A DNA stretch of 64,000 nt. It comes from Pseudomonadota bacterium. GTDB lineage: Bacteria > Desulfobacterota > Syntrophorhabdia > Syntrophorhabdales > Syntrophorhabdaceae. The DNA is taken from contig JAPLKC010000080.1 of assembly GCA_026388255.1 (NCBI GenBank), positions 1 to 64,000 on the forward strand, written 5' to 3'. The translations under genes and the position numbers were made by a program. The notes under the pieces are model-generated. The model was not told the DNA's origin, did no database searches, and worked only from the letters and a program-made list of their open reading frames with translations. Below, one piece after another: positions 19,369 through 59,976 of this stretch (position 1 is its first letter; every line of letters begins with the position of its first letter).

Positions 19369-19566
19369 CCCGAAGCAGAGCTTCGAGGAATCTATTGATT
19401 GAATTCATAAATACACATGGTTTGTACCTGCCTTTATAATCCTAACAAAATTCCAAAAATCCCGTCATGCCGGTGAAAACCGGTATCCAGAAGTTAATGA
19501 ACTACCCGAAGCAGAGCTTCGAGGAATCTATTGATTGAGTTTACTGGATTTCGGCTTTTGCCGGTA
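19369..19566. repeat. cluster of dispersed palindromic repeats upstream of dsrA
   Basis: Two identical 34-bp units (19369-19402 and 19505-19538) begin with the hairpin CCCGAAGCAGAGCTTCG and end ATCTATTGATTGA. The second lies between inverted arms of another repeat type, CGTCATGCCGGTGAAAACCG near 19463 and CTGGATTTCGGCTTTTGCCG near 19543. The whole block fills the 540-bp gap before dsrA. Nothing coding is seen. Confidence 0.65.
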
Positions 19567-47360: not shown

Positions 47361-48286
47361 AATAACTCGCTTTTGATGATAAACCTTGGCCTTCTTCTGA
47401 CCTCCTGGTAAATCCTTCCGATATACTCTCCTATGATGCCCATAGCAAATATCTGGATCCCTATGAAAAAGAATAATATCCCGAAAAGTGTGAATGTGCC
47501 CTCCACTTCAGGGCCTACAATGAATCTTCTCGCAATGAGGAATAGGGCGAAGGCAAGCCCCAGAAACGCTATGATAACCCCGAGTACGCCTATAAATTGA
47601 ATCGGCAGCAATGAAAAGCTTGTCATAAGGTCAAAATTCAAGCGAAGAAGCCGGAAAAGACTGTACTTTGTCGTTCCTTTTTTCCTTTCCTCATGTTCGA
47701 CTTCTATTTCAACAATTTTTTTGGCAAATGTATTTGCGAGGGCAGGTATGAAGCTTGATGATTCCGGACACATGTTAATATTGTCAATAATGCTGCGCTG
47801 GTATGCCCTTAACATACATCCATAATCCCTCAGTTTAACTCCGACAAGCTTTGAAGTAATCTTGTTTACGATAATTGATGCAAGCCTTCTGAAAAGCGAA
47901 TCCTTCCGTTGTTTTCTGTATGTGCCGACAACTTCGTAGCCTTCCTCGACCTTTTGGACAAGTTTCGGAATCTCCTCGGGTGGATTCTGTAAATCCGCAT
48001 CAATTGTGACAATAATATCGCCTTTTGCATAGCCGAAACCCGCAAAAATGGCCATGTGCTGACCATAGTTTCTGTTGAACTCGATAACTTTAACGGCAGG
48101 ACAGCGGTCATGGAACTCTTCCAAAATATTCTGTGTGCCGTCGATGCTCCCATCGTTGGTGTAGATAATTTCATAAGGTTTCTTGATGCTGTCGAGTGTT
48201 TTTTGCAGTCTCTCCTGCAACTCATGAAGGGATTCCTCCTCGTTTAAAACAGGTATCAGCACAGAGATATAGGGCTTATCTTCCAT
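47357..48286 (-). CDS. arnC: undecaprenyl-phosphate Ara4FN transferase (ArnC-like GT2)
   Basis: 309 aa family 2 glycosyltransferase. Nucleotide-sugar site VLIPVLNEEESLHEL, catalytic DADLQNPPEEI, and two C-terminal TM helices (QFIGVLGVIIAFLGLAFALFL and LFGILFFFIGIQIFAMGIIG) with the closing RPRFIIKSELL. It moves formyl-Ara4N onto undecaprenyl phosphate at the inner membrane. Close relatives include other polyprenyl-phosphate sugar synthases, but the arn context decides the name. It overlaps arnT by 11 bp. Confidence 0.88.
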   Translation of the reverse strand: MEDKPYISVLIPVLNEEESLHELQERLQKTLDSIKKPYEIIYTNDGSIDGTQNILEEFHDRCPAVKVIEFNRNYGQHMAIFAGFGYAKGDIIVTIDADLQNPPEEIPKLVQKVEEGYEVVGTYRKQRKDSLFRRLASIIVNKITSKLVGVKLRDYGCMLRAYQRSIIDNINMCPESSSFIPALANTFAKKIVEIEVEHEERKKGTTKYSLFRLLRLNFDLMTSFSLLPIQFIGVLGVIIAFLGLAFALFLIARRFIVGPEVEGTFTLFGILFFFIGIQIFAMGIIGEYIGRIYQEVRRRPRFIIKSELL

Positions 48287-49853
48287 CTTTCCTCACATAA
48301 ATCGTATAGTGTTCTTTTTCGTAATGAGCCTTCCGTACCGGCAAAAATAACAAATTCAGGTCTTTATCCATATGTTGCGATTGTTCGTCTTCAACTATGA
48401 GAAGTATATCATTTTTTTTGTCTTTTAGCTCGTCTAAGTTCTTGAATATCTGAATGGGTTTGCCTATGTAGAATATTATCCCTGCGGAAGAAAAACCGTA
48501 TGTATGGATGTCTTTGCCTTCTTTCAGATTGCCTATTCTGTCAGTTATCAGTCTCGGAGATTTAAAGTTTTTATCCATCACAGGCATGTATAAGTTGTGA
48601 TAAAAATAACCGGTAAACACAAAATAAAAGAATAGTACAGAAAGGGTCAGGGTATGTGATTTTTTCTTTACAGCATAGAAGAAGGCGCCACCTGTGAGAA
48701 TAAGTACGGTTATATAAAAATAAAGGGTAACGGACTCTTGCTTAAAAACATTTACCACAGGGGAGTTCAGGAGATTGAGTACAAAAATGGCAGCAAGGGG
48801 TATAATTAATAGAAGAAAGGCAAAAGACCTGACCAAAATATTTGTTATCGGGTTTTCCAGAAGCCATGGCCACTTATCCTTTATATAGATACCACATAAC
48901 AATGCACATGCAGGATAACAGGACAGTAGGTATATGGCTCTCTTGCTCGTTGAAAACTCGAAAAAGAGAAAGATAACAATAAACCATATAAGGGGAAACC
49001 AGATTTTTCTTTTAAAGGCATGGTAGACTGCAAAGGGGAGCAGGATACTCCAGGGGAGAAAATTAAAAAACAGCTTATGAAAATAATAGTATAAGGTTTC
49101 TATATGATCGAAGGCGTTTGTGTAACGCGTTACATTCTGCCTCAAAATAAATTCCTTTATATACTCCTGACCTGCAAGAAAAAACCATATTGAAGAGAGT
49201 GCGGCAGATATTATGCACCCTGCTATAAGAGGAAGCATGAATCTTTTCAACTCCTTCCTGCTGATCAGGTAAAAAAAGGTTACCAGGGCGGGCAGTACAA
49301 GCCCTGCAGGCCCTTTTGTGAGTATCCCCAGGGCGGCAGGGATAAAGGACAGCATGAAATAAAGCCTCTTTCCTTTAGAAATATAGATATAATTAAGAAA
49401 TACGGTAAGCCCGATAAGACATGCAAAGGTCATATCCATCACAGATTCGCGTGCATTGGAGAGAAACTGGTAATTTGTAGCAAGGATAAAGGCGGAAAGA
49501 AACCCTGTCAGCGGATTTACCAGAGAGCAGCCAAGATAATATGTAATAATCACAAGTAATGTAGCCGACAATGCAGCCGGCAGTCTTGATGAGAATTCAC
49601 TGACTGTGCCCTTGAGTTTTGATGCAGCAATAATCATCCATGGATATAAAGGCGGTTTTTCAAGATACGGTTTTCCGTTTAAATAAGGATGTATATAATC
49701 TTTTCTATCCATCATCTCTTTTGCCATGATCGCCTGTCTCGGTTCATCGGGATCCCAGAGCGCAACCCCACCGAGGTTCTGAATAAATAAGACATAACAT
49801 GTGAGAATAATGACTATTACTTTCATAAATAGAAAATTGTAAGTTTTATACAC
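48276..49853 (-). CDS. arnT: lipid A Ara4N transferase (ArnT-like GT39)
   Basis: 525 aa with about 12 membrane helices. The periplasmic catalytic motif WDPDEPRQAIMAKEM is near residue 34, and KPYLEKPPLYPWM near 62. It transfers Ara4N from undecaprenyl phosphate to lipid A phosphates, lowering the negative charge of the outer membrane and polymyxin binding. GTG 49853 or ATG 49826 could start it; neither has a strong Shine-Dalgarno. First gene of the arn unit, driven by a promoter whose -35 lies inside the attachment repeat. arnB and arnD are absent from the window. Confidence 0.87.
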   Translation of the reverse strand: MYKTYNFLFMKVIVIILTCYVLFIQNLGGVALWDPDEPRQAIMAKEMMDRKDYIHPYLNGKPYLEKPPLYPWMIIAASKLKGTVSEFSSRLPAALSATLLVIITYYLGCSLVNPLTGFLSAFILATNYQFLSNARESVMDMTFACLIGLTVFLNYIYISKGKRLYFMLSFIPAALGILTKGPAGLVLPALVTFFYLISRKELKRFMLPLIAGCIISAALSSIWFFLAGQEYIKEFILRQNVTRYTNAFDHIETLYYYFHKLFFNFLPWSILLPFAVYHAFKRKIWFPLIWFIVIFLFFEFSTSKRAIYLLSCYPACALLCGIYIKDKWPWLLENPITNILVRSFAFLLLIIPLAAIFVLNLLNSPVVNVFKQESVTLYFYITVLILTGGAFFYAVKKKSHTLTLSVLFFYFVFTGYFYHNLYMPVMDKNFKSPRLITDRIGNLKEGKDIHTYGFSSAGIIFYIGKPIQIFKNLDELKDKKNDILLIVEDEQSQHMDKDLNLLFLPVRKAHYEKEHYTIYVRKDGR

Positions 49854-49926: not shown

Positions 49927-49955
49927 TTTATATTCTAATATTTGACATTTTTCAA
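49927..49955 (-). promoter_or_regulatory. promoter of the arn operon, partly inside attL
   Basis: On the minus strand TTGAAA (49955-49950), exactly 17 bp, then TATAAA (49932-49927), about 75 bp before arnT. The -35 lies inside the 29-bp direct repeat and the -10 lies outside the mobile element. Confidence 0.6.
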
Positions 49956-49963
49956 TAATTTTT
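49935..49963. repeat. attL: left 29-bp direct repeat of the integrated element
   Basis: Begins CTAATATTTGACA and ends CAATAATTTTT; identical over all 29 bases to 58083-58111. The bases outside differ at both ends. It lies 130 bp from the integrase stop. Confidence 0.88.
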
Positions 49964-50065
49964 TTCAATAATTCTTTGCTTTGTCAAATAATTGTTGTCA
50001 ATTTTGTCAATCATTTCAACATAGTGCAAATTCATCACAAACTCTCTGTTTCTTTAAAAAGGGTA

Positions 50066-50099
50066 TTTTCTAACGGTTTTCTAACGGAATTTCTAACGG
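50066..50099. repeat. left arm-type repeats, three TTTCTAACGG copies
   Basis: TTTTCTAACGG at 50066-50076 and 50077-50087, then TTTCTAACGG at 50090-50099, 102 bp inside attL and running into the integrase stop codon. Matching copies lie near the right end. This is the layout of arm-type integrase binding sites. Confidence 0.65.
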
Positions 50100-51154
50100 C
50101 CATAAAATGTATTCTCCAATTTTGCAACCTGCGACTTGGAAAAATCTGCATCATTAAAGAGGTGTCCATATAGGTCATAGGTGATCTTGATACTTGAATG
50201 TCCTAACTGTTGAGAAAGGTATTTTGGATTTTGTTCGCTTCTGATCCTAACACTGGCATTTGTGTGCCTTACACTGTGCCATTTAACCTTTGTTGCCTCT
50301 GCTTTTTGTAATGCCGGATTGAAATAACACTTAACGAAATTGCTATGGATTACAGGCTTTCCACGTTTTGAAGGAAAAACAAGATTTAGCTTATTAACAG
50401 GGCATTGCAGTTTCCACTTTTTCAATTCCAGTGCAAGAGAATTTGAAATATCAATTCTCCTTTTGCTCGTTTCTGTTTTGGGTTCGTAAAGTTTGCCTTT
50501 CCAAAGAGAATACCTTACATGGATCGTTCCGGTATTTAAATCTATATCATCCCATGTAAGCCCCCATAACTCATTAGCCCTAAGTCCTGTAAGGATCGCT
50601 GTTAAAACTGCAACATGATAATGAGGGTGCATTTTCTCTAAGAATTTGTATGCTTCATTGATGTCCAATATAGTCACTTCTTTCTTGGATATACGGGGGT
50701 TTTTTATAAACTCTCCCGGATTTCTATTAGTATATCCCCATTGATAAGCGTGTTTAAGCATCTCCTTTAAAATAACAACGTCTCGTTGTGTTGTAGAAGG
50801 TTCTACTTCATTTAACCTTTTAACTATAAAGGTTTGTATGTGTGCCCCTGTTATGTTCTGCAATAGAGCATTGCCAAAATGTTTTGTAAACCTCCCTACA
50901 ACGTATTTATATTCTCCTTGTGCCGTTTCTTTGATATTGGTTGCAACATAACTGTCAATCCATATCTTTCCAAATTCTGCGAATGTTGTCTTTTTAATAT
51001 CCCGGAATGTTCCGTTTTGTGCCGATGGTAAGTTTTCGTTTAGTACCCTTTCAGCATCTTTCCTTGTGTCACCGCCCTTTATCCATTTGCGCTTACTTCC
51101 AATGGCAATGACAGCATAATAAACACTTCCTTTTTTTACTATGCTTCCTCTCAT
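50093..51154 (-). CDS. int: tyrosine-type site-specific integrase
   Basis: 353 aa. An N-terminal arm-binding segment (about 1-55, RGSIVKKGSVYYAVIAIG) and SAM-like core-binding domain (about 56-150) precede the catalytic domain. Catalytic residues are Arg192 (TGLRANELWGL), Lys226 (EPKTETSKRR), His293 and Arg296 (HSVRHTNAS), His319 (LGHSSIKITYD) and Tyr329 (DLYGH). All are intact, so it should be active. It integrates the element at the 29-bp core. Its ATG overlaps the stop of the upstream HTH gene (ATGA). Its stop lies inside the third arm-type repeat. Confidence 0.95.
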   Translation of the reverse strand: MRGSIVKKGSVYYAVIAIGSKRKWIKGGDTRKDAERVLNENLPSAQNGTFRDIKKTTFAEFGKIWIDSYVATNIKETAQGEYKYVVGRFTKHFGNALLQNITGAHIQTFIVKRLNEVEPSTTQRDVVILKEMLKHAYQWGYTNRNPGEFIKNPRISKKEVTILDINEAYKFLEKMHPHYHVAVLTAILTGLRANELWGLTWDDIDLNTGTIHVRYSLWKGKLYEPKTETSKRRIDISNSLALELKKWKLQCPVNKLNLVFPSKRGKPVIHSNFVKCYFNPALQKAEATKVKWHSVRHTNASVRIRSEQNPKYLSQQLGHSSIKITYDLYGHLFNDADFSKSQVAKLENTFYGR

Positions 51155-51393
51155 GTCTCCTCCGTTTTCCTTTTCGTTTTTGGTGTAACCCTTTCACCTC
51201 CTTTGTCTTTATTCGAAAAAAACTCTCTCAAATCTTCCTCTGTGATCATCCAGTTCTTTCCCACTTTCTTTCCCTTGAGTTTCCCTGTGGTAAACCATGA
51301 ACGAATGATCCGGGGATTCATTTCAAGTGCCTTTGCAATATCTTCAACATCATAAAGAGTAATACTGCCAATTGATTTTACCATATCGTTCAC
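51151..51393 (-). CDS. excisionase-like helix-turn-helix protein
   Basis: 80 aa. A MerR/Xis-type winged helix (about 12-60; LYDVEDIAKALEMNPRIIRSWFTTGKLKGKKVGKNWMITEEDL region) and a basic tail (TPKTKRKTEET). The gene is translationally coupled to the integrase, as recombination directionality factors often are, so an excisionase role is likely though not proven. The start ATG 51393 has a GAGGTG-type site. Confidence 0.82.
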   Translation of the reverse strand: MNDMVKSIGSITLYDVEDIAKALEMNPRIIRSWFTTGKLKGKKVGKNWMITEEDLREFFSNKDKGGERVTPKTKRKTEET

Positions 51394-51405
51394 CTCAATA
51401 GTGTT

Positions 51406-51514
51406 ATGATATGTATATATAATGTATTAAAAATGATATGTCAAGTATATTATATGAATATATGATATTTTGCAATATACATAATCGAATAATGATATTA
51501 CATTGTTATGATAT
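51406..51514. repeat. five ATGATAT repeats between two HTH genes
   Basis: Copies at 51406-51412, 51433-51439, 51462-51468, 51492-51498 and 51508-51514 (spacings 27, 29, 30 and 16 bp) in a very AT-rich 136-bp gap. They could be operators of the HTH proteins or origin iterons. CTTCTAACGG (51516-51525) follows directly. Confidence 0.55.
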
Positions 51515-51529
51515 ACTTCTAACGGCTTT

Positions 51530-51811
51530 CTAACCATTTCCATGTTGTTTCATCCACTGCAAGATTGCATTTTTCGAGAACCTCAAAGACTTGCCTGCTT
51601 TCATATAGGGAAAATCAAAAAGGCCATGTTGTGAGTTATTCACCCATTGATACACTTGCCCTTTGCTTTTATTCAAAATCCTTGCAACACCTTCCACTGA
51701 GATAAGTTCATCTTGTCTGGTGTCCTGTTGCCCGGACAGCATGGGTTTGATAAGTTCAGCAACCTTTTCTGCTATGGCCTGAATGTCTGAGGATTCAAGT
51801 TCAATCTTCAT
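51530..51811 (-). CDS. helix-turn-helix regulator (AlpA/MerR-like)
   Basis: 93 aa. An N-terminal helical region (ELESSDIQAIAEKVAELIKP) resembles a dimerisation coil. A HTH_17-type DNA-binding domain follows (ISVEGVARILNKSKGQVYQW, then MKAGKSLRFSKNAILQWMKQ). Proteins of this type control excision or replication genes in integrative elements. It is separated from the second HTH gene by the ATGATAT repeats, which may be its target (inference). Its stop overlaps a TTTCTAACC half-match of the arm repeat. Confidence 0.78.
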   Translation of the reverse strand: MKIELESSDIQAIAEKVAELIKPMLSGQQDTRQDELISVEGVARILNKSKGQVYQWVNNSQHGLFDFPYMKAGKSLRFSKNAILQWMKQHGNG

Positions 51812-52224
51812 TCATTCGCCTTGCCATAAGAATGAGGGTACCCTGTGAGATAGGCATGGGGAGGGGGAGATTCCCCTCTTTTCCTATATAACTCATAATA
51901 CCCCTTTAGAAGTGCGCAATATTTTCATAAAAACCATGTAATTATGCACTAAAATAGCCTTAAAATACTGTAAAAGTTGAACAAAAATGCAATTATTGAA
52001 AACTATCAAAGTTCTAATGATATTCATGATGTATATAACGATATAAGATAATAAAAGTAAAAAAAACTAAACTTAATATCCTATTTAGCTTAACCTTTCC
52101 CGTTAACAGTGAACAAAATTTGAAGCGTATCCCTTGGGGATATGTTGTCATAAATTATCCTTCCTTCTCATAACAATGATTTTCCTCTTAAAAAAGTTCA
52201 TTAGGTTGACATTAAGGTAATCGG
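51812..52224. other. 413-bp AT-rich non-coding region of the element
   Basis: No ORF with a plausible start. The stretch 51900-52110 is strongly AT-rich with poly-A runs, suitable for promoters or a replication origin, but no defined repeat is seen apart from scattered TGATAT-like words. Confidence 0.4.
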
Positions 52225-52500
52225 TCATGCCCCTTCCCTTATAATGCTCATAGCCTCTGTAGAAGCTTCACCAGAAGATAAAACGGGGGGTTCAACGGTC
52301 TTATATGGCATGAAATTGAAGAGGCTGCATTCAGGAATTTCACATGAGTAAATCCCGTCATTAAATCCGCCCATGCAGTCATAACATTTTGCTTTAATGG
52401 CTTGGTTCCGGGTCAATCTTTCACCTTTTAGGTGCCGGATAAGTTCGCCCCGGCCTTGCGCCCTTTTGCCAAATTGCTGAATAGTTTTTATGCTGTCCAT
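52225..52500 (-). CDS. small zinc-finger-like mobile-element protein
   Basis: 91 aa. The core QAIKAKCYDCMGGFNDG then YSCEIPECSLFNFMPY places four cysteines as CxxC...CxxxxC, suggesting a bound metal. Proteins with this AIKAKCYDCMGG...PYMPY pattern recur in phages and integrative elements without known function. The end is not conserved-looking. AGGAGG lies before the ATG, 10 bp after the preceding gene. Confidence 0.7.
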   Translation of the reverse strand: MDSIKTIQQFGKRAQGRGELIRHLKGERLTRNQAIKAKCYDCMGGFNDGIYSCEIPECSLFNFMPYKTVEPPVLSSGEASTEAMSIIREGA

Positions 52501-52510
52501 ATTAAGCCTC

Positions 52511-52750
52511 CTAAAATAAATTCCCCTGGTTTACCTTTTTGGGTATCAGTGGCAGTACTTCTTTCTTGTTAAATATTGCTTCAGCATATCTGGTATACTC
52601 ATCCAGAATATCCCTCGTTTCATGCCTGTTCAAATTCCTTGCATATCCCCGGTCAATCGAAGCTTGTTCATTTTGTGTTCTGAACATCTCGCCCGGTTGA
52701 AGTATCTCGCCATTAACTTTTAGAGGTCGGATAACTTTCAATATTGCCAT
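52511..52750 (-). CDS. hypothetical mobile-element protein, 79 aa
   Basis: Unrecognised. The N-terminus AILKVIRPLKVNGEILQPGEMF looks like a small beta-barrel, followed by a helical region rich in Arg/Glu and the tail PLIPKKVNQGNLF. It overlaps the helicase stop by 13 bp, so it is in the replication transcript. Confidence 0.6.
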   Translation of the reverse strand: MAILKVIRPLKVNGEILQPGEMFRTQNEQASIDRGYARNLNRHETRDILDEYTRYAEAIFNKKEVLPLIPKKVNQGNLF

Positions 52751-54402
52751 CTTTCGCCCTCTACTTCGGGAATGTCATCTTCTTCAATAATAAACCCGTC
52801 AATTGTCTCTGTCCTCTCTGTCTTTCTGTCCTCTGGACAATCGGACAATATACTACTATCAACAGTTTGCATCTTGTTTCTTTCGCTTATTGTCCTTTCT
52901 TCGGTGGACAAAGAGACAATACTTTCTCTCTGTTCGTTACTGTCTGGACAATTAGAAATATGGCCCTCTGTAGAACGTTGATATTCTTTAATTGTCTTGC
53001 TGTCCTTATATATATATGGAGGGACAATCGGACAATAACGAATTGCCCTGCCTTTTCCTTCATCCTTTTTTGCTTCCCAATATTTACCCGTCCCTTTGTT
53101 GAGTAGTTTTATTAATTTACCCTTTGAATGAATTCCTAACTTTGTTTTGACAAGTTCGAACACTTCACCCTGTTTTAATGGTTCCGGTGCTTCTTTGAGA
53201 AGTTCGTATATTTCTTCAAGTTCGTTAGTGTCCGGGTCTTCAGCAAGCATAAACCCTCGTTCATTGTTGAATTCAATAAAAATATGAAAAGGTTCATATC
53301 TTGTCTTGCTCTTTGTTCCAAAACGATAATAAGGGGTCTCGCTGTCTTCATCGTCTGTTTCTTCAAGAGTCCCTTTTCTCACTTTATGAAGGGAAAGGAC
53401 ATGATCTGCAAGGTCGAGGATTGCCGTTGATCCTTTATATGTCTGCTCATTACCTTTAGGTGTATGGTGCAGGAGAAGAATAGTAAAACCCATGTCCCTG
53501 AGTTCCTTTAATCTGGACATAACAAAAGCCATCTGCCTTGAATCGTTCTCGTCTTTTGTCTGTGAAGCTCTGAGGGTATCGTATATGATAAGACCAACGG
53601 GAAGTTTCTTGTATAAATCCCATTCCTGAGAGTCTATTTTTGGGGGTTTTACCTCATTTGTATTGTGCCAAAAGAGAACATCACCGGCCTGTAACTTCTT
53701 GACCCTTTCAACGAGGACAGGGAAAGAATTCTCAAAGTCAACAAAGACAACGGGTGATTGAACGGTACCTTGTCCCATAAACGGTATGCCCTTTGAAACA
53801 GCATCGGCAACAATAAGGGTCAACCATGTTTTTCCAATACCACCCCGGCCATGTAAAAGGATAATACTCTCTTTTGGAATCAGTTTATCAATTACCCATT
53901 CAACATGAATATCGAGGTTAAGCAATTCTGACCCTCTTTTGAGGACAGAATAAGGGTCAAAAACATCTTCTTTATTGTCCGGACATTGACCAACTTGACA
54001 CTCTGTAAACCCTTGATAGTCCTTATTGTCCTTTTGTCCACTACTATATATAGGTAGACAATGAGACAAAGACATAAATTGAGCAAGGGAATCGGTTCCT
54101 GAAATTATCTTTCTTGCATCTTCCCATTTTTTCCCCTGACAAGAATTGTGAAAGCATTGATATAAAAGTTTCCCGTCCGGTAATTGAATTATGCTTGATT
54201 CGCCCTGTGTGTGATCAGGGTCAAATAGACATTCATCGAGGGCATATATGGTGCTTTTTCCATTCTGCTTAACTTTATATCTCATCCCGTAATGATTCAA
54301 ATACGCTTCAACGTCCACTTTCCCGTTATTGGTCGGGGTTTGTGTCGTGGTATCTTTTTTGAATTTATCCCTTAATTGTTCAACCTGTTCATTCGTTATC
54401 AT
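52738..54402 (-). CDS. RepA-like AAA helicase with N-terminal primase-type zinc domain
   Basis: 554 aa. The N-terminal region (about 30-100) has YLNHYGMRYKVKQNGKSTIY and LLYQCFHNSCQGKKW, resembling a CHC2-like domain. An AAA_25/RepA ATPase follows, with Walker A HGRGGIGKTWLTL (about 182-194), VVFVDFEN and Walker B GLIIYDTLRA. A long Ser/Thr-rich tail ends in EDDIPEVEGE. It would unwind the element's origin. ATG 54402 lies inside the end of the primase gene (14-bp overlap); the frame is open further upstream but that part overlaps coding sequence of the primase. Confidence 0.85.
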   Translation of the reverse strand: MITNEQVEQLRDKFKKDTTTQTPTNNGKVDVEAYLNHYGMRYKVKQNGKSTIYALDECLFDPDHTQGESSIIQLPDGKLLYQCFHNSCQGKKWEDARKIISGTDSLAQFMSLSHCLPIYSSGQKDNKDYQGFTECQVGQCPDNKEDVFDPYSVLKRGSELLNLDIHVEWVIDKLIPKESIILLHGRGGIGKTWLTLIVADAVSKGIPFMGQGTVQSPVVFVDFENSFPVLVERVKKLQAGDVLFWHNTNEVKPPKIDSQEWDLYKKLPVGLIIYDTLRASQTKDENDSRQMAFVMSRLKELRDMGFTILLLHHTPKGNEQTYKGSTAILDLADHVLSLHKVRKGTLEETDDEDSETPYYRFGTKSKTRYEPFHIFIEFNNERGFMLAEDPDTNELEEIYELLKEAPEPLKQGEVFELVKTKLGIHSKGKLIKLLNKGTGKYWEAKKDEGKGRAIRYCPIVPPYIYKDSKTIKEYQRSTEGHISNCPDSNEQRESIVSLSTEERTISERNKMQTVDSSILSDCPEDRKTERTETIDGFIIEEDDIPEVEGERWQY

Positions 54403-55129
54403 CGGCAACCCCCAAATCTTCAATGTATGATGTTCTATGCGGTCTCGCTTCTCTGTACTGATTCGCCGGTACTTCGTCACCTTTGCCAGTTCGGGTTCCA
54501 TATAGCTTCCAAATTCTGGCAGGGTTAAAAACGGCGGTATCAATGCTCACCTTTGAAGTGCTGAATTGTTCATCAATATTTTCGAGTATAGACTTGATAA
54601 ACTGCTTGTTCTGCTCGTTCGCTTCGAGGTCGGGTAGTTTGTAAAGTAAGTGATAGCCGTTTCCGGACATAGCTTTTACAGGGTTTGTAAAATTGAGGTT
54701 TTCGGCTATCCATACAATAACCCTCTCTCGCATTTCATAAGCCTGTTCAAGTTCACTATCACTTGAAGATATTCCCGCCGGTCTCACAGGGCCAAGGTCA
54801 ATCGGTAACCATCTATAAGCAATGACATTAGGGTCACTTGTGCCCAGTATTCCCGGTTTCATTCTGTTAAATGCCCTTGCGAGTAAACGAGGGTCAATTA
54901 CTTGAAGGGTAAAATAAATTCCTGTATGTTCACATTGTTCAAGGGTCTTTACCGCTTCACAGAATTTTGAATTGTCATCAAAATATCCTGATAGTGTGCC
55001 TTTATGATATTCACCGGCCATCCTTCCCTTAAGGTAAATAACCCGGATTTCAACAACTTCACCTTCATGGACAAAGACAGAAAAAGCGTGAGGATTATAG
55101 AGGGTAGGGTTATCTGTTGTAGTTTCCAT
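54389..55129 (-). CDS. AEP-superfamily primase-like protein with altered catalytic motif
   Basis: 246 aa. The layout matches small mobile-element primases: WLPIDLGPVRPAGISSSDSE (107-126), then AMSGNGYHLLYKLP and RIWKLYGTRTGKGDE. The first motif normally reads DxD (D-L-D-P-V-R); here it is Asp111-Leu-Gly113. Loss of the second metal-binding Asp could abolish primer synthesis while DNA binding remains. Otherwise the protein looks complete. It overlaps the downstream helicase gene and the upstream DUF5659-like gene, so all three are co-translated. Confidence 0.82.
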   Translation of the reverse strand: METTTDNPTLYNPHAFSVFVHEGEVVEIRVIYLKGRMAGEYHKGTLSGYFDDNSKFCEAVKTLEQCEHTGIYFTLQVIDPRLLARAFNRMKPGILGTSDPNVIAYRWLPIDLGPVRPAGISSSDSELEQAYEMRERVIVWIAENLNFTNPVKAMSGNGYHLLYKLPDLEANEQNKQFIKSILENIDEQFSTSKVSIDTAVFNPARIWKLYGTRTGKGDEVPANQYREARPHRTSYIEDLGVADDNE

Positions 55130-55391
55130 TTCTTACTCCGTTATCGTTTACGTCTCCCCCGTCTCTGAGGGTAAGCATTTGCCCCCTTATCTTGCGTAGA
55201 CACCCCACGAAGTCCAAAAGGTTAACCCTCGGATTTTCGTTATACTCGCCTAAAAACCTGTAGGTTTCCGGTGTTGAAGGAACAAGAAAAACAACCCTCG
55301 TTCCTCGTTTCTCAAATTCAACAGGAATATTGTTCAGGCTTAAATATGCGACTTCGTGAATTTCATAAAGCGGGATTTTTTGACTTGCCAT
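55110..55391 (-). CDS. DUF5659-like small protein
   Basis: 93 aa. LYEIHEVAYLSLNNIPVEFE and RVNLLDFVGCLRKIRGQML match the pattern of DUF5659, a short family of primase-adjacent proteins in mobile elements; function unknown. TAAGGAGG lies 8 bp before the ATG. A 16-bp palindrome (55418-55433) lies just upstream. Overlaps the primase start by 20 bp. Confidence 0.65.
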   Translation of the reverse strand: MASQKIPLYEIHEVAYLSLNNIPVEFEKRGTRVVFLVPSTPETYRFLGEYNENPRVNLLDFVGCLRKIRGQMLTLRDGGDVNDNGVRNGNYNR

Positions 55392-55417
55392 TATCGTGCC
55401 TCCTTAGCAATTACCTT

Positions 55418-55433
55418 TATACTAAGGAGTATA
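55418..55433. promoter_or_regulatory. palindromic operator candidate upstream of the replication genes
   Basis: TATACT-AAGG-AGTATA, a perfect 6-bp inverted repeat with 4-bp centre, 27 bp upstream of the DUF5659-like start and overlapping the likely promoter area. It may be the site for an element-encoded regulator. Confidence 0.4.
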
Positions 55434-55493
55434 ACACACTGATATTATTAGTCAAACGTGAGAAATTAGAATTACTTAGAAAATTCTAAAAAA

Positions 55494-55859
55494 TTATATT
55501 TGCTTCGAGGTTTTGTACTTTTGCCTTACAAGGTCAGGGTCGGGATCAGTATAAACATTGGGGTAAAAAATATTCAATATTGCCCCTGTTCTTATAAATG
55601 CTTTTCTTTCGGTATAGTCTATGCGTTTCAGTTCATTCACGATACCCACAACAGCCTCAGTCCACATACCATGAGACGATTGCTTCAAAGATATTTTTGA
55701 AGTTATCTTGCCTTTATTTTTACTATCATAAAAAGCCTTTCTCAGTTTTGGATTTTTTTCCAAATATTGCATTTTTTTAAATTCTTCAAACCATTCATCA
55801 TCATTTACATATTCATAATTCTTTACGGGTAGAGCATCCAGATAAATAGTATTCAGTTC
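55494..55859 (-). CDS. second half of an amber-interrupted mobile-element gene
   Basis: The frame that ends at 55494 is open right up to the TAG stop (55862-55860) of the gene before it, with no ATG/GTG/TTG for 30 codons. The first ATG is at 55772, giving 92 aa. The intervening residues (ELNTIYLDALPVKNYEYVND, then EWFEEFKKMQYLEKNPKLRK) look like real protein. I therefore read this as the C-terminal part of one gene of about 250 codons interrupted by a single amber codon. If translated alone, the 92-aa product from 55772 is basic and of unknown function (KISLKQSSHGMWTEAVVGIV). Confidence 0.5.
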   Translation of the reverse strand, partial: ELNTIYLDALPVKNYEYVNDDEWFEEFKKMQYLEKNPKLRKAFYDSKNKGKITSKISLKQSSHGMWTEAVVGIVNELKRIDYTERKAFIRTGAILNIFYPNVYTDPDPDLVRQKYKTSKQI

Positions 55860-56252
55860 CTAGAATTCTTTAATAGCCTTCTGCATTTTAAGCAGTCCCG
55901 GATTGACTTCAGGATGCGAACCGGTAAAAAGGCCAGCTGAAAGCGGAGAAAGTTCGAGCAGTGTTCTCATGGCATTTGAAATAACTTTTCTTTTCTTTGT
56001 TTTTTCTGCTCTTTTCTTTTCGACTTTCTCAAAGTCAATTTCAAAATCATCTGTGCCTGTCTTTTCTTTCCATTTATCATATATCGAAAAAACAGCAGCA
56101 AGAATAACCCCAATTTCACACCCCTCTTTCCGCAGTTCAAAAAGAGTCTCGAATTCTTTGCTTTTCGGAAGTTCTATTTCATTGTTGAATGCTTTCTCAA
56201 CAATATTTACGATGACTAACAAATAGTCTGGTATTTGCGTTTTCGTTTCCAT
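55860..56252 (-). CDS. hypothetical mobile-element protein, first half before an amber stop
   Basis: 130 aa, helical. A first part VIVNIVEKAFNNEIELPKSK is followed by a charged central helix (FEIDFEKVEKKRAEKTKKRK) and LLELSPLSAGLFTGSHPEVN. ATG 56252 has AAGGA 7 bp upstream; the TTG five codons earlier overlaps that site. It ends in TAG 55862-55860, and the same frame continues open for another 121 codons. No family recognised. Confidence 0.6.
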   Translation of the reverse strand: METKTQIPDYLLVIVNIVEKAFNNEIELPKSKEFETLFELRKEGCEIGVILAAVFSIYDKWKEKTGTDDFEIDFEKVEKKRAEKTKKRKVISNAMRTLLELSPLSAGLFTGSHPEVNPGLLKMQKAIKEF

Positions 56253-56351
56253 TTTAATTTCCTTCAACGTGGTTCCCTGAAAGATTTAGTAGCAAGCGGC
56301 TGGAGAAAGTGCTTTTCGGCAGTTACCCTATCCCTGTATGCAAAAAAATTG

Positions 56352-57722
56352 TCAGAATTTCTTTTCAGAAGCCTTAGAACATCTTCCAAAAGATGGACCC
56401 CCACCATCATCATAGGTTGCGGTAATCTGTCCGGTATACCTATCAATTGCCATCCGAAGGTCGGATTGATTCCAATCTATTCGGCTTTCAGTAATATTTG
56501 CAGAAAAACCATTAACAGTTTTTTTTTTTATTTTCACGATAAACAACTTCTCGAAACCAAGTATAGAACATGTAAGCTTCAGTATGTTTTCTTTCTGATG
56601 GGCTTGCCGGTCTAAAATGTCTTGTGAATATTTATCTCCCAGTCTTGCCGCTACCTTATAGTCTTCAACTGCCTGAGCTTCTTTACCCAAAGCTATATAT
56701 GCATCCCCACGACCTCTATACACAAAAGGGTCACCAGGGTTTATCTCGATAGCCTTGTTATAGTCCTCTATAGCTCGCTGGTGCTGACCAAGGATCCCGT
56801 ATGTTGACCCCCGGAAGACGTAGGCCAAAGCATAATCAGGCTTGATACGGATAACCTTGTTGAAATCCTCAATTGTCCGCTGGTACTGACCGAGCATACT
56901 GTATGCTAACCCGCGGTTCTTGTGTGCATCAACATCATCCGGTTTCAGGCGTATAGCTTCATTGAAATCCGCGATTGCCTGCTGGTGATTACCCAACATG
57001 CTATATGCATAACCGCGGAAGAAGTATGATAAACCGAGAAAAGCGGAATCCTTAGGGAGCCCTTTATCTATAAGCTCTATATCTATAATTTTGCTATAGT
57101 CGTCAATAGCCTTTTGATAGTCACCGAGAGCAGAATAAGCATGGGCACGACCAGCATAGCAATGAATACGAGTACCATTAGTGGCGAGGAGAAGAAAACC
57201 TTCCGTGAATTCGGATACTATCTCAAGCGCTTTATCGTAGTCCTGAATTGCACGTTTATAGTCTTCTAAGGATGCATATGCATCTCCGCGACTTGAGTAA
57301 TTGTGATAATTATTAGGATCCATAGCAAGAGCTTGATTATAATCTTGAATAGCCTGAATATTATTACCCAAATCAGCATATTCTTTGCCTCGTAAACTGT
57401 AATAGCTTGCTTCCTTTGGGTTTATTTTGATAGCTTTGTTGTAGTCCTCGATAGCTCGTTGATGATTTCCTAACTTTGAAAACGAGAATGCTCGGAAGTT
57501 ATAGGCCTGGTCATTACCGGGTTCTTTCTTGATAATCTTGTCAAGCTTCTTTATTGCTTCGCTATACTTGCCTTGCGAGATAAAGGGTGATGTGACTTGT
57601 TCAAATAAATCGATCTTAGTGCCAGCGCGGACATAGACGGGAAACAACACTACAATAAGAAAATAAAGTACAGCCATGCAGGATATTTTGAAAATAGGTA
57701 TTTTTTCCTTTTTCATTTCCAT
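56352..57722 (-). CDS. exported tetratricopeptide-repeat protein (cargo)
   Basis: 456 aa. An N-terminal signal or anchor helix (ISCMAVLYFLIVVLFPVYVRAG) precedes about nine TPR units of 34 residues (for example AFSFSKLGNHQRAIEDYNKA and GLAYSMLGQYQRTIEDFNKV), spanning about 45-375. A C-terminal beta-rich domain follows: FSANITESRIDWNQ then IDRYTGQITATYDDGGG and a lone Cys in FGRCSKASEKKF. Such a protein would act in the envelope as a scaffold. It has no obvious recombination or replication role, so it is probably cargo of the mobile element. Its own promoter must lie in the 360-bp gap toward attR. Confidence 0.88.
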   Translation of the reverse strand: MEMKKEKIPIFKISCMAVLYFLIVVLFPVYVRAGTKIDLFEQVTSPFISQGKYSEAIKKLDKIIKKEPGNDQAYNFRAFSFSKLGNHQRAIEDYNKAIKINPKEASYYSLRGKEYADLGNNIQAIQDYNQALAMDPNNYHNYSSRGDAYASLEDYKRAIQDYDKALEIVSEFTEGFLLLATNGTRIHCYAGRAHAYSALGDYQKAIDDYSKIIDIELIDKGLPKDSAFLGLSYFFRGYAYSMLGNHQQAIADFNEAIRLKPDDVDAHKNRGLAYSMLGQYQRTIEDFNKVIRIKPDYALAYVFRGSTYGILGQHQRAIEDYNKAIEINPGDPFVYRGRGDAYIALGKEAQAVEDYKVAARLGDKYSQDILDRQAHQKENILKLTCSILGFEKLFIVKIKKKTVNGFSANITESRIDWNQSDLRMAIDRYTGQITATYDDGGGPSFGRCSKASEKKF

Positions 57723-58082
57723 AATATATGCCCCTATACCTCAATTTTAGCAAAAATAAGGAATTAGTCAAACAAATAAACAAGATAGATGATTTAAACT
57801 GCTATACCAATGAGTTTACTTACACATTAAAAAGAAGGAACAGCAGAAACGGAGGAAAAAACAAGACCCCACCTATTTCTAAGCGGAGTCTTGTGTGTTG
57901 GTGCTAACATGCTTTCGAGCGCTAAATCCCCGTTAAAAACGTTTCAATTTCTTCTAACAGATTTCTAACGGAACAACATAAAACAGCCAAAAACAACTTG
58001 AAATACAAATATGCTCTTAATTCTGCGCACATTGAAATGATTGACGTTATTTCAGATCGCTTGAGACTGATAATGTAACTAA
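57723..58082. other. right-end non-coding region of the element
   Basis: 360 bp without a gene. It contains a hairpin CAAGAC...GTCTTG (57862-57893) with GC-rich inner pairing, and two arm-type repeats: CTTCTAACAG (57951-57960) and TTTCTAACGG (57962-57971), 111 bp inside attR. Confidence 0.55.
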
Positions 58083-58111
58083 CTAATATTTGACATTTTT
58101 CAATAATTTTT
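58083..58111. repeat. attR: right 29-bp direct repeat of the integrated element
   Basis: Exact second copy of the 49935-49963 repeat, directly upstream of the ilv operon. The distance between copies is 8148 bp. Confidence 0.88.
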
Positions 58112-58118
58112 ATACCAT
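58090..58118 (+). promoter_or_regulatory. putative promoter of the ilv operon, -35 inside attR
   Basis: TTGACA (58090-58095), 17 bp, then TACCAT (58113-58118). The -35 and almost the whole spacer lie in the attachment repeat; the -10 lies in host DNA. The -10 is imperfect (4 of 6). Confidence 0.45.
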
Positions 58119-58134
58119 ATCACTTTGCACTTTA

Positions 58135-58281
58135 ATGAAAGAAGGCGAAACAAAAGAAGATATATACAAAAGAGCGAAAGACCAGCACACAATGCTCGAC
58201 AGAAGGCTGCTGATGCTGCTCAGTTACCTTAAAGATGTTATGGAAAAAATAAAAGAAGAAATGAGTAAAGGGGAAACGTAA
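58135..58281 (+). CDS. 48-aa coiled-coil protein preceding ilvB
   Basis: Small charged protein: EGETKEDIYKRAKDQHTMLD followed by LLMLLSYLKDVMEKIKEEM. The pattern DxHxxLDRR...L...EEM is reminiscent of DUF465/YdcH-type small helical proteins but shorter, so the family is tentative. No Shine-Dalgarno precedes ATG 58135, and the predicted transcription start is only about 10 nt upstream, so initiation may be leaderless-like. Its stop abuts the ilvB TTG, and AAAGGGGA inside its end serves ilvB, implying coupling. Confidence 0.6.
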   Translation: MKEGETKEDIYKRAKDQHTMLDRRLLMLLSYLKDVMEKIKEEMSKGET

Positions 58282-59976
58282 TTGAAAAAGACCGGTTCAC
58301 AAATATTGGTAGAATCCCTTAGGATTGAAGGAGTGGATAATATCTTCTGTTATCCTGGCGGCGCAACCCTGTATATTACCGATGAGCTTTACCACGCTTC
58401 TGACATAAAGCAAATTATCGTAAGGCACGAACAAGGAGCGGTCCATGCATCAGATGGCTATGCAAGGGCGTCAGGTAAGGTCGGTGTATCTCTTGTAACA
58501 TCAGGTCCCGGCGCAACTAATACTGTCACCGGCATTGCTACCGCCTATATGGATTCGATTCCGCTCGTGATTTTTTCGTGTCAGGTCAACACGATGCTCA
58601 TTGGAAACGATGCCTTCCAAGAGGCCGACATTATTGGGATTACAAGGCCCTGCACAAAGCATAGTTATCTGGTAAGAGATGTCAATGACCTTGCAAGGAT
58701 TATTAAGGAGGCTTTTTACATCGCAAAATCGGGAAGGCCTGGACCGGTGCTTGTTGATATACCGAAAGATGTTTCTGCAAATATAACGGAATTCAAATAC
58801 CCTGACAAGGTGGCAATCCGCAGCTATCAACCCACATACGTCGGACATATAGGCCAGATAAAAAAAGCAATAAAGCTTATAGCCTCTTCAAAACGTCCGG
58901 TCCTTTACACGGGCGGTGGCATTATTTCGTCCGGGGCATCTACCGAACTCCTGAAATTTGCTGAAAAACTTTCCATACCGGTAACAAATACCCTTATGGG
59001 ACTTGGCGGTTTTCCCGGCAACAACCCCTTGTTTCTCGGTATGCTCGGCATGCACGGGACGTATGCAGCAAATATGGCTATAACGGATTCTGATTTGATA
59101 ATCGCTATCGGTGCAAGATTTGACGACAGGGCAACGGGCAAGGTTGATGAGTTTGCTTCACATGCAAAGATTATCCATGTTGATATTGATCCGACTTCAA
59201 TCAGTAAGAACATTAAGGTGGATATACCCATAGTAGGTGACTCAAGGCATGTGCTCAAAAAAATGCTGGACTTTATTGAGGAAGACAAGGAGGGTCTCAA
59301 AGATTACCCGGCAACCATTTCCGAATGGACCAAACAGATACAAAAATGGCAGAAAGGATATCCCCTCACTTATGTAAGGGACGGCTCACTGAAACCGCAA
59401 TATGTCATTGAGAAGATATACGAACTTACAAAAGGCAAAGCAATAATCGCAACCGAAGTGGGACAGAACCAGATGTGGACAGCCCAGTTTTATAAATTTA
59501 TTAAGCCGAGAAGCATTTTAACATCAGGCGGTCTTGGTACCATGGGTTATGGGTTTCCGGCAGGCATAGGAGCACAGGTAGCCTTTCCCGGGGCGCTCGT
59601 TATTGACATTGCAGGTGACGGAAGCATTCAAATGAATATTCAGGAACTTGCAACAGCAGTTCAGTTCAATCTGCCGGTTAAGGTTGTCATATTGAACAAC
59701 AGATACCTCGGGATGGTAAGACAATGGCAGGAGCTTTTTTATGAGAAGAGATACGCCTGGACACAGATGGACCATGCCCCTGATTTTGTAAAGCTTGCAG
59801 AGGCTTACGGAGCAGCCGGATACAGGATAGAAAACGAGGACGAGGTGGAAACGGTTTTAAGGGAAGCCTTTAAAAACGGCAGACCGACATTGATTGATGT
59901 TCGGGTGAACCCGGATGAATGCGTCTACCCTATGGTACCTGCCGGCGCACCGTTAAGTGAGATGCTTCTCGTTTAG
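58282..59976 (+). CDS. ilvB: acetolactate synthase, large subunit
   Basis: 564 aa TPP enzyme. The N-terminal YCYPGGA-like segment ([16 protein letters not shown]) is followed by the catalytic Glu in [20 protein letters not shown] domain segments ([21 protein letters not shown]) and TPP motif [16 protein letters not shown]...[12 protein letters not shown]. It condenses two pyruvates, or pyruvate and 2-ketobutyrate, in branched-chain amino acid synthesis. Start TTG 58282 with AAAGGGGA 7 bp upstream. First enzyme of a five-gene operon. Confidence 0.96.

Follow-up and report, generated by a model that had tools for sequence, protein, structure and literature searches.

Integrative elements usually reside at tRNA genes or at gene ends, since the segment duplicated on integration rebuilds the gene. 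Regulatory DNA is affected by prophage HK022 at torS-torT in E. coli: the phage supplies a promoter of its own, and the native torS promoters are removed or displaced (PMC6814406). EfCIV583 (pp7) of Enterococcus faecalis is attached in the promoter region of a permease, and the passages of PMC3675006 that describe the island propose a modulation. TnGBS, ISLre2 and ISKra4 carry DDE transposases and insert 15-17 bp upstream of many different sigma-A promoters (PMC3942029), and bidirectional promoters are now a recognised class in bacteria (PMC12825309). Here we describe an 8.1-kb element located between an arnT-like gene and the ilv operon in a 64,000-nt stretch of Syntrophorhabdaceae DNA (contig JAPLKC010000080.1, assembly GCA_026388255.1; host genome 3.83 Mb), hereafter the window. 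It is best explained as an integrative element that is site-specific and attaches at the overlapping -35 region of a conserved arnT/ilvB bidirectional promoter, a reading to which we assign a probability of roughly 0.88. No report of an attachment core formed by the shared -35 region of two promoters was found in the open-licence literature.

Attachment site and promoter geometry

The element is enclosed by two exact copies of the 29-bp sequence CTAATATTTGACATTTTTCAATAATTTTT (Table 1). The host genome of 3.83 Mb has no further copy when up to three mismatches are allowed, and the reversed control also returned none. The window sequence agrees with the initial annotation in these 29-bp repeats, in their hexamers and in the 17-bp spacing between -35 and -10 at both junctions (minus strand at the left, plus strand at the right). 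The proposed 29-bp core holds as an exact repeat in the window, but the core of all related attachment sites is the 22-bp TAATATTTGACATTTTTCAATA; the window repeat is longer partly because its left copy has a 13-bp tandem duplication.

Both -35 hexamers lie entirely inside the 22-bp core and both -10 hexamers outside it, in host DNA, and for this reason insertion regenerates two outward promoters. At neither junction is an inward-facing -10 found at the right distance, and this is the case in all three intact elements, those of the window and of genomes G002 and G021. The hexamers alone prove nothing because generic promoter matches are as common in shuffled DNA (24 found in the region versus 26.6 expected), and a comparison with relatives is needed. 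The joint geometry of the four hexamers was absent from 40 Markov shuffles of the joined 453-bp empty site, and gave 0, 0, 1, 0 and 1 matches in five Markov shuffles of the whole window.

The integrase would recombine attP with the one core on the chromosome, leaving 22-29 bp of identity at both junctions. The arnT side would keep a leftward-reading -10 and -35 and the ilvB side a rightward-reading -35 and -10; each host -10 would retain a -35 at 17 bp because the duplicated identity holds both overlapping boxes. One shared site would be converted into two one-way outward promoters 8 kb apart with neither operon silenced, and the formerly coupled operons would cease to compete for polymerase at one place. 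Being conserved and present once per genome, the promoter would serve this element as tRNA genes serve others. The exact crossover point and the role of the candidate arm sites we infer from the sequence, and the element may still be able to move.

Conservation of the undivided promoter

The only other genome available from this genus (G001; L004/L010) lacks the element; its IlvB is 92% identical. Its empty site, ATTTTATATTCTAATATTTGACATTTTTCAATATTTTTTATACCATATC, consists of one core flanked by the ilv operon and a divergent arnT orthologue (88% identity in the aligned part). In 12 genomes arnT and ilvB are divergent and separated by a single core that has a -10 hexamer on either side; the initial annotation had suggested a search for precisely such empty sites, and its insertion model withstood that search. 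All 12 shared sites retain TTTATA, TTGACA and TACCAT, the leftward -35 being either TTGAAA or TTGCAA. The leftward -10 is TTTATA, which reads TATAAA on the minus strand, and it lies 17 bp away from either form of this -35.

The block TTGACATTTTTCAATATTTTTTATACCATAT is located upstream of ilvB in 30 aligned family members, usually at 219-221 bp. Across 25 element-free sites high information extends from -5 to +31 relative to TTGACA (approximately 37 bp), with background levels upstream. TTTATA marks the genomes with an adjacent divergent arnT orthologue (automated count 16/2/2/15). The off-diagonal genomes are G006 and G008, which were misparsed, the pattern having matched the arnT-side relic, and G015 and G029, where arnT is 261-267 bp off with an arnT-side relic in between. 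The composite promoter occurs at most once per genome, upstream of ilvB, and is absent from the reversed control. By sequence, then, the site comprises two divergent sigma70-type promoters with DNA in common, conserved together with gene order.

It is on the conservation of this composite that the promoter reading rests, because hexamer matches alone are uninformative. They are equally common in shuffles and the DNA is AT-rich, both of which suit the alternative that the target is a conserved, AT-rich stretch of intergenic DNA merely resembling promoters, the hexamers arising by chance and transcription starting elsewhere. That alternative does not account for the conservation of the hexamers and their 17-bp spacings, but not of the flanks, in most genera of the family, for the association of the leftward -10 with an adjacent divergent arnT, or for split copies that keep the outward hexamers only (see below), which a mere recombination site leaves unexplained. 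We consider it very unlikely.

Occupied sites and relics in other genera

The closest integrases in the family, those of G002 (78% identity) and G021 (74%), sit at the same arnT/ilvB site in two further genera. The 8.0-kb element of G021 has both junctions on one contig, with arnT at the left and ilvB at the right; its integrase/HTH end is homologous to that of the window element (75% at the DNA level), whereas the replication and cargo parts differ. The DUF465 open reading frame (ORF) of G021 (L013) starts only approximately 5 nt past the -10 hexamer (TATACCATATCGCATGG); the mRNA may have no leader, or almost none.

Relics are present in at least three more genera, represented by G025, G023 and the genus g4. 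In G025 both element arms flank a 1.5-kb remnant with a CheX gene; in G023 the left arm adjoins arnT and a right-arm fragment adjoins the ilvB promoter. In nine g4 genomes arnT is displaced from the ilvB core, most showing a left-arm trace (ATTTCTTTGC) for which permutation gave p values of 0.00-0.02 in seven genomes, 0.33 in G016 and 0.06 in G017; a further g4 genome, G014, has an intact single site. Occupied or relic sites coexist with intact single sites within genera g1, g4, g8 and g9, and on the IlvB tree at least four to five changes between the split and the single state are needed. No recognisable arm was found in the old splits of g3, g6, g10 and g11, though arnT and ilvB are apart there. 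Neither an arnT-side copy nor a close ilvB orthologue was found in genus g5 (G018, G019).

Several observations concern individual loci. G014 (L093, C25), the only g4 genome with an intact single site, nests among split ones, which may reflect several splits that arose independently, precise restoration, or acquisition of the locus by gene transfer. In several g4 genomes the arnT-side copy is about 1.1 kb from the ilvB-side copy. Between these copies G006 (L095:2089-2835) has a DUF3313 gene, which may be cargo retained from a decayed element. In G030 (L045, C235) the core copies are separated by two-component-regulator-like genes and two diverged ArnT-like genes with no recognisable element, and a GT2 gene now directly follows the arn-side promoter.

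Genomes in which arnT and ilvB lie apart with no recognisable element, of which there are several, would also be expected had old host rearrangements been joined by an unrelated phage-like insertion, the 29-bp repeats not being a recombination site. Yet the integrase gene lies directly inside attL in three genera, the repeats bound all three elements, the same genus supplies a single-core empty site, and the core has an element arm on either side. Of the explanations weighed here, this is the least probable, and we regard it as extremely unlikely.

Complementary decay of split copies

A single pattern, applied alike to all positions, located 19 older splits in seven genera, approximately half of them in g4. 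In the three intact elements both -35 hexamers are still present in both core copies. The arnT-side copies of the old splits have kept the outward TTGAAA in 19/19 cases and TTTATA in 17/19, whereas the inward TTGACA survives in one of 19, having decayed to GGGACA, TCAAAA, TGGATA, TCGATT and others. The mirror image is seen on the ilvB side: TTGACA is kept in 14/18 copies and is TTGACT in the remainder (TTGACA/T, 18/18), TACCAT is kept in 14/18, and the inward, leftward TTGAAA remains in 2/18 with no inward -10 (0/18). Compared within each genome, the outward hexamer is the better kept by 18:0 on the arnT side and by 14:1 on the ilvB side, and the direction of decay is alike in nearly all of the seven genera.

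No other observation argues as strongly for functional hexamers as this complementary decay, which points to their acting as promoters in the cell. Together with the outward promoters of the three intact elements it upholds the earlier suggestion that both operons keep a -35 region; the accompanying description of an "essential" operon was overstated, ilvBNC being biosynthetic.

The element might, like HK022, swap the host promoters for outward promoters of its own, the preserved host hexamers being incidental. HK022 does so in a short divergent intergenic region (PMC6814406), and the integrase gene of the window element is transcribed toward arnT, such that it could read through. Both host -10/-35 pairs, however, are intact at each junction of the three intact elements, and relics retain them preferentially. 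Replacement of this kind is therefore very unlikely here, if slightly less so than hexamers arising by chance.

Integrase relatives and change of target

A phylum-wide search of 395 genomes, drawn evenly and with most of the window's own family left out, had no hits at E<=1e-70 other than the window and G002. The integrase scan of genome contigs gave only one fragmentary relative, and that of viral contigs none. The next integrases are found at tRNA genes, namely tRNA-Cys (G034, G026; 48%) and tRNA-Met (G031, G042; 41%). This agrees with the initial remark that attachment away from tRNA genes and gene ends is unusual: the nearest integrases outside the promoter-site clade use tRNA genes. The tRNA-Met element of G031 has an 84-bp repeat; for neither tRNA-Cys element could the attR far end be found on its contig. 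G042 (L085, C89) has two related integrases 7 kb apart, one of them by tRNA-Met, and these possibly belong to two tandem elements.

The three promoter-site integrases form one clade (100/100). In the tree this clade sits among tRNA-site integrases, where it joins the tRNA-Cys pair (100/99). Compared with that pair, identity is approximately 65% in the arm-binding, 33% in the core-binding and 51% in the catalytic region, while within the promoter-site clade it is even across regions (70-82%). Tandem TTTCTAACGG repeats beside the integrase gene are common to the window element and the tRNA-Cys elements. A lineage that kept its arm recognition while rebuilding that of the core would be expected to show a conserved arm domain and conserved TTTCTAACGG repeats with a diverged core-binding domain. 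This pattern suggests that the clade may have switched its target from tRNA to promoter via the core-binding domain, with the arm-type sites kept. The lambda/HK022 integrase pair is a known parallel for arm recognition kept and core recognition changed.

Several points weigh against the interpretation given here. The 19 splits are not independent, coming from related genomes, about half of one genus. The contigs belong to metagenome-assembled genomes, and the junctions of G002 and of G023 each lie on different contigs. In g4 the arm is not significant in G016 and G017. The armless splits of g3, g6, g10 and g11 could be ordinary rearrangements; whatever their cause, they still test the promoter reading. 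The target switch rests on three promoter-site versus four tRNA-site integrases. On balance we think it fairly probable that a tyrosine-integrase lineage switched from tRNA genes to a bidirectional sigma70 promoter, and that repeated insertions across the family duplicate the -35 region and uncouple the operons without silencing them, the copies then specialising.

Gene content of the element and its flanks

The integrase gene lies directly inside attL and the integrase looks intact: the catalytic domain is present (Pfam Phage_integrase) and the motifs TGLRANEL, HSVRHTN, LGHSS and YDLYGH are conserved in the alignment. With active-site motifs, direct repeats at both ends, the integrase gene beside one of them and an empty site in a relative, the element fits the site-specific integrative elements of the tyrosine-recombinase type; a TnGBS-type identity was ruled out, the enzyme not being a DDE transposase. 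At the position of the separate probable primase of the window element, those of G021 and G002 encode a single larger primase/helicase ORF. The ORFs not listed in Table 1 are small and of unknown family.

No relaxase or type IV secretion system families were found among the 11 larger element ORFs scanned, which does not fit an integrative conjugative or mobilizable element. The PHROGs scan gave integrase, excisionase, HTH and replication functions only, with no capsid, packaging or tail genes, which does not fit a prophage. PADLOC, searched for defence cargo, gave only weak TPR and incidental matches. Judged from genes alone, the presence of integrase, regulator and primase/replication genes without detected structural genes fits a satellite resembling the phage-inducible chromosomal islands (PICI-like).

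At the left of the element lies an arn-like cluster of formyltransferase, ArnC-like and ArnT-like genes, all on the minus strand. The gene originally called arnT does match the ArnT model, but scores below its curated cut-off and is better termed arnT-like. At the right, a small ORF is followed by ilvB, ilvN and ilvC, all on the plus strand. The leader ORF is approximately 20 amino acids (aa) shorter in frame than its 68-aa DUF465 relatives, with the conserved centre lost, and the distance from promoter to ilvB is 161 bp versus about 220 bp in relatives. The window also has an exact direct repeat unrelated to the element (CCCGAAGCAGAGCTTCGAGGAATCTATTGATTGA; 19369-19402 and 19505-19538, 136 bp apart).

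Table 1. Features of the element, its junctions and the adjoining host genes (window coordinates).
Feature	Position	Strand	Remarks
arnT-like glycosyltransferase, host, left flank	48276..49853	-	
-10 TATAAA, arnT-facing, host DNA	49927..49932	-	In 12/12 shared sites and 17/19 arnT-side copies
attL, left 29-bp core copy	49935..49963		Exact repeat; holds both -35 hexamers; core common to attL of four genera
22-bp core TAATATTTGACATTTTTCAATA	49936..49957; second copy 58084-58105		Common to attL and attR of all three intact elements
13-bp tandem duplication TTTTTCAATAATT	49948..49973		Element edge of attL; private to window copy
-35 TTGAAA, arnT-facing	49950..49955	-	Kept in 19/19 arnT-side copies of old splits
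Candidate arm site GTCAATCATTTCAA	50006..50019		Inverse of 58032-58045; degenerate copies in other attL
Candidate arm-type sites, tandem TTTCTAACGG	50068..50098		Also adjoin tRNA-Cys integrases
Tyrosine integrase, 353 aa	50093..51154	-	Phage_integrase 1.2e-20, SAM-like N-terminal domain; PHROG integrase 1.4e-66
HTH_17 protein, probable excisionase	51151..51393	-	Overlaps integrase gene by 4 bp; 77% identical homologues in G002 and G021
Second HTH_17 DNA-binding protein	51530..51811	-	
AAA_25 (RepA-like) helicase, replication module	52738..54543	-	
Probable primase part of replication module	54389..55129	-	Weak PHROG replicative-helicase match
TPR-repeat protein, cargo slot beside attR	56352..57722	-	Apparent signal peptide; G021 slot holds different cargo
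Candidate arm-type sites TTCTAACAGATTTCTAACGGAA	57952..57973		Right end of element
Candidate arm site TTGAAATGATTGAC	58032..58045		Conserved in attR of G021 and G002
attR, right 29-bp core copy	58083..58111		Exact repeat; aligned with attR of three other genera
-35 TTGACA, ilvB-facing	58090..58095	+	First five bases invariant in 25 intact sites
-10 TACCAT, ilvB-facing, host DNA	58113..58118	+	Within TATACCAT
Small leader ORF, host, first gene of ilv operon	58135..58281	+	DUF465 family in relatives
ilvB, acetolactate synthase large subunit, host, right flank	58282..59976	+	

Comparison with known systems

The gene-rebuilding logic of tRNA-site elements would here be applied to a promoter, with the overlapping -35 regions in the attachment core and the -10 hexamers outside it. 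The family also presents a natural experiment on bidirectional promoters, in that shared sites must serve two genes, whereas each copy of a split site can shed the half it does not use, as is observed. It offers a traceable case of a probable integrase target switch in which the domain likely to be responsible is indicated. If the interpretation is correct, a mobile element has been a recurrent promoter-duplicating and operon-uncoupling agent across a bacterial family.

With HK022 the window element shares a tyrosine integrase, a short intergenic region between divergent genes and an effect on host regulatory DNA. HK022 is a 40-kb prophage that replaces a promoter, whereas the window element is 8 kb with no capsid genes detected, and its core holds both -35 regions such that both host promoters are regenerated. 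EfCIV583 is likewise a small satellite-like island in a promoter region, but neither a shared divergent core nor a duplication of promoter parts is reported in those passages of PMC3675006 that describe it. The TnGBS-type elements also target promoters; in contrast, the window element employs a tyrosine integrase and a single site per genome, inside the -35 region. Its relatives at tRNA-Cys and tRNA-Met belong to the same integrase superclade and have as core a conserved host sequence that is restored by the duplicated segment, differing in that this sequence is a tRNA 3' end and not a promoter. Finally, the arnT/ilvB site resembles the bidirectional promoters of PMC12825309 in being pseudo-symmetrical, divergent and built on common DNA, and differs from them in that its -35 regions overlap and it doubles as an attachment site.

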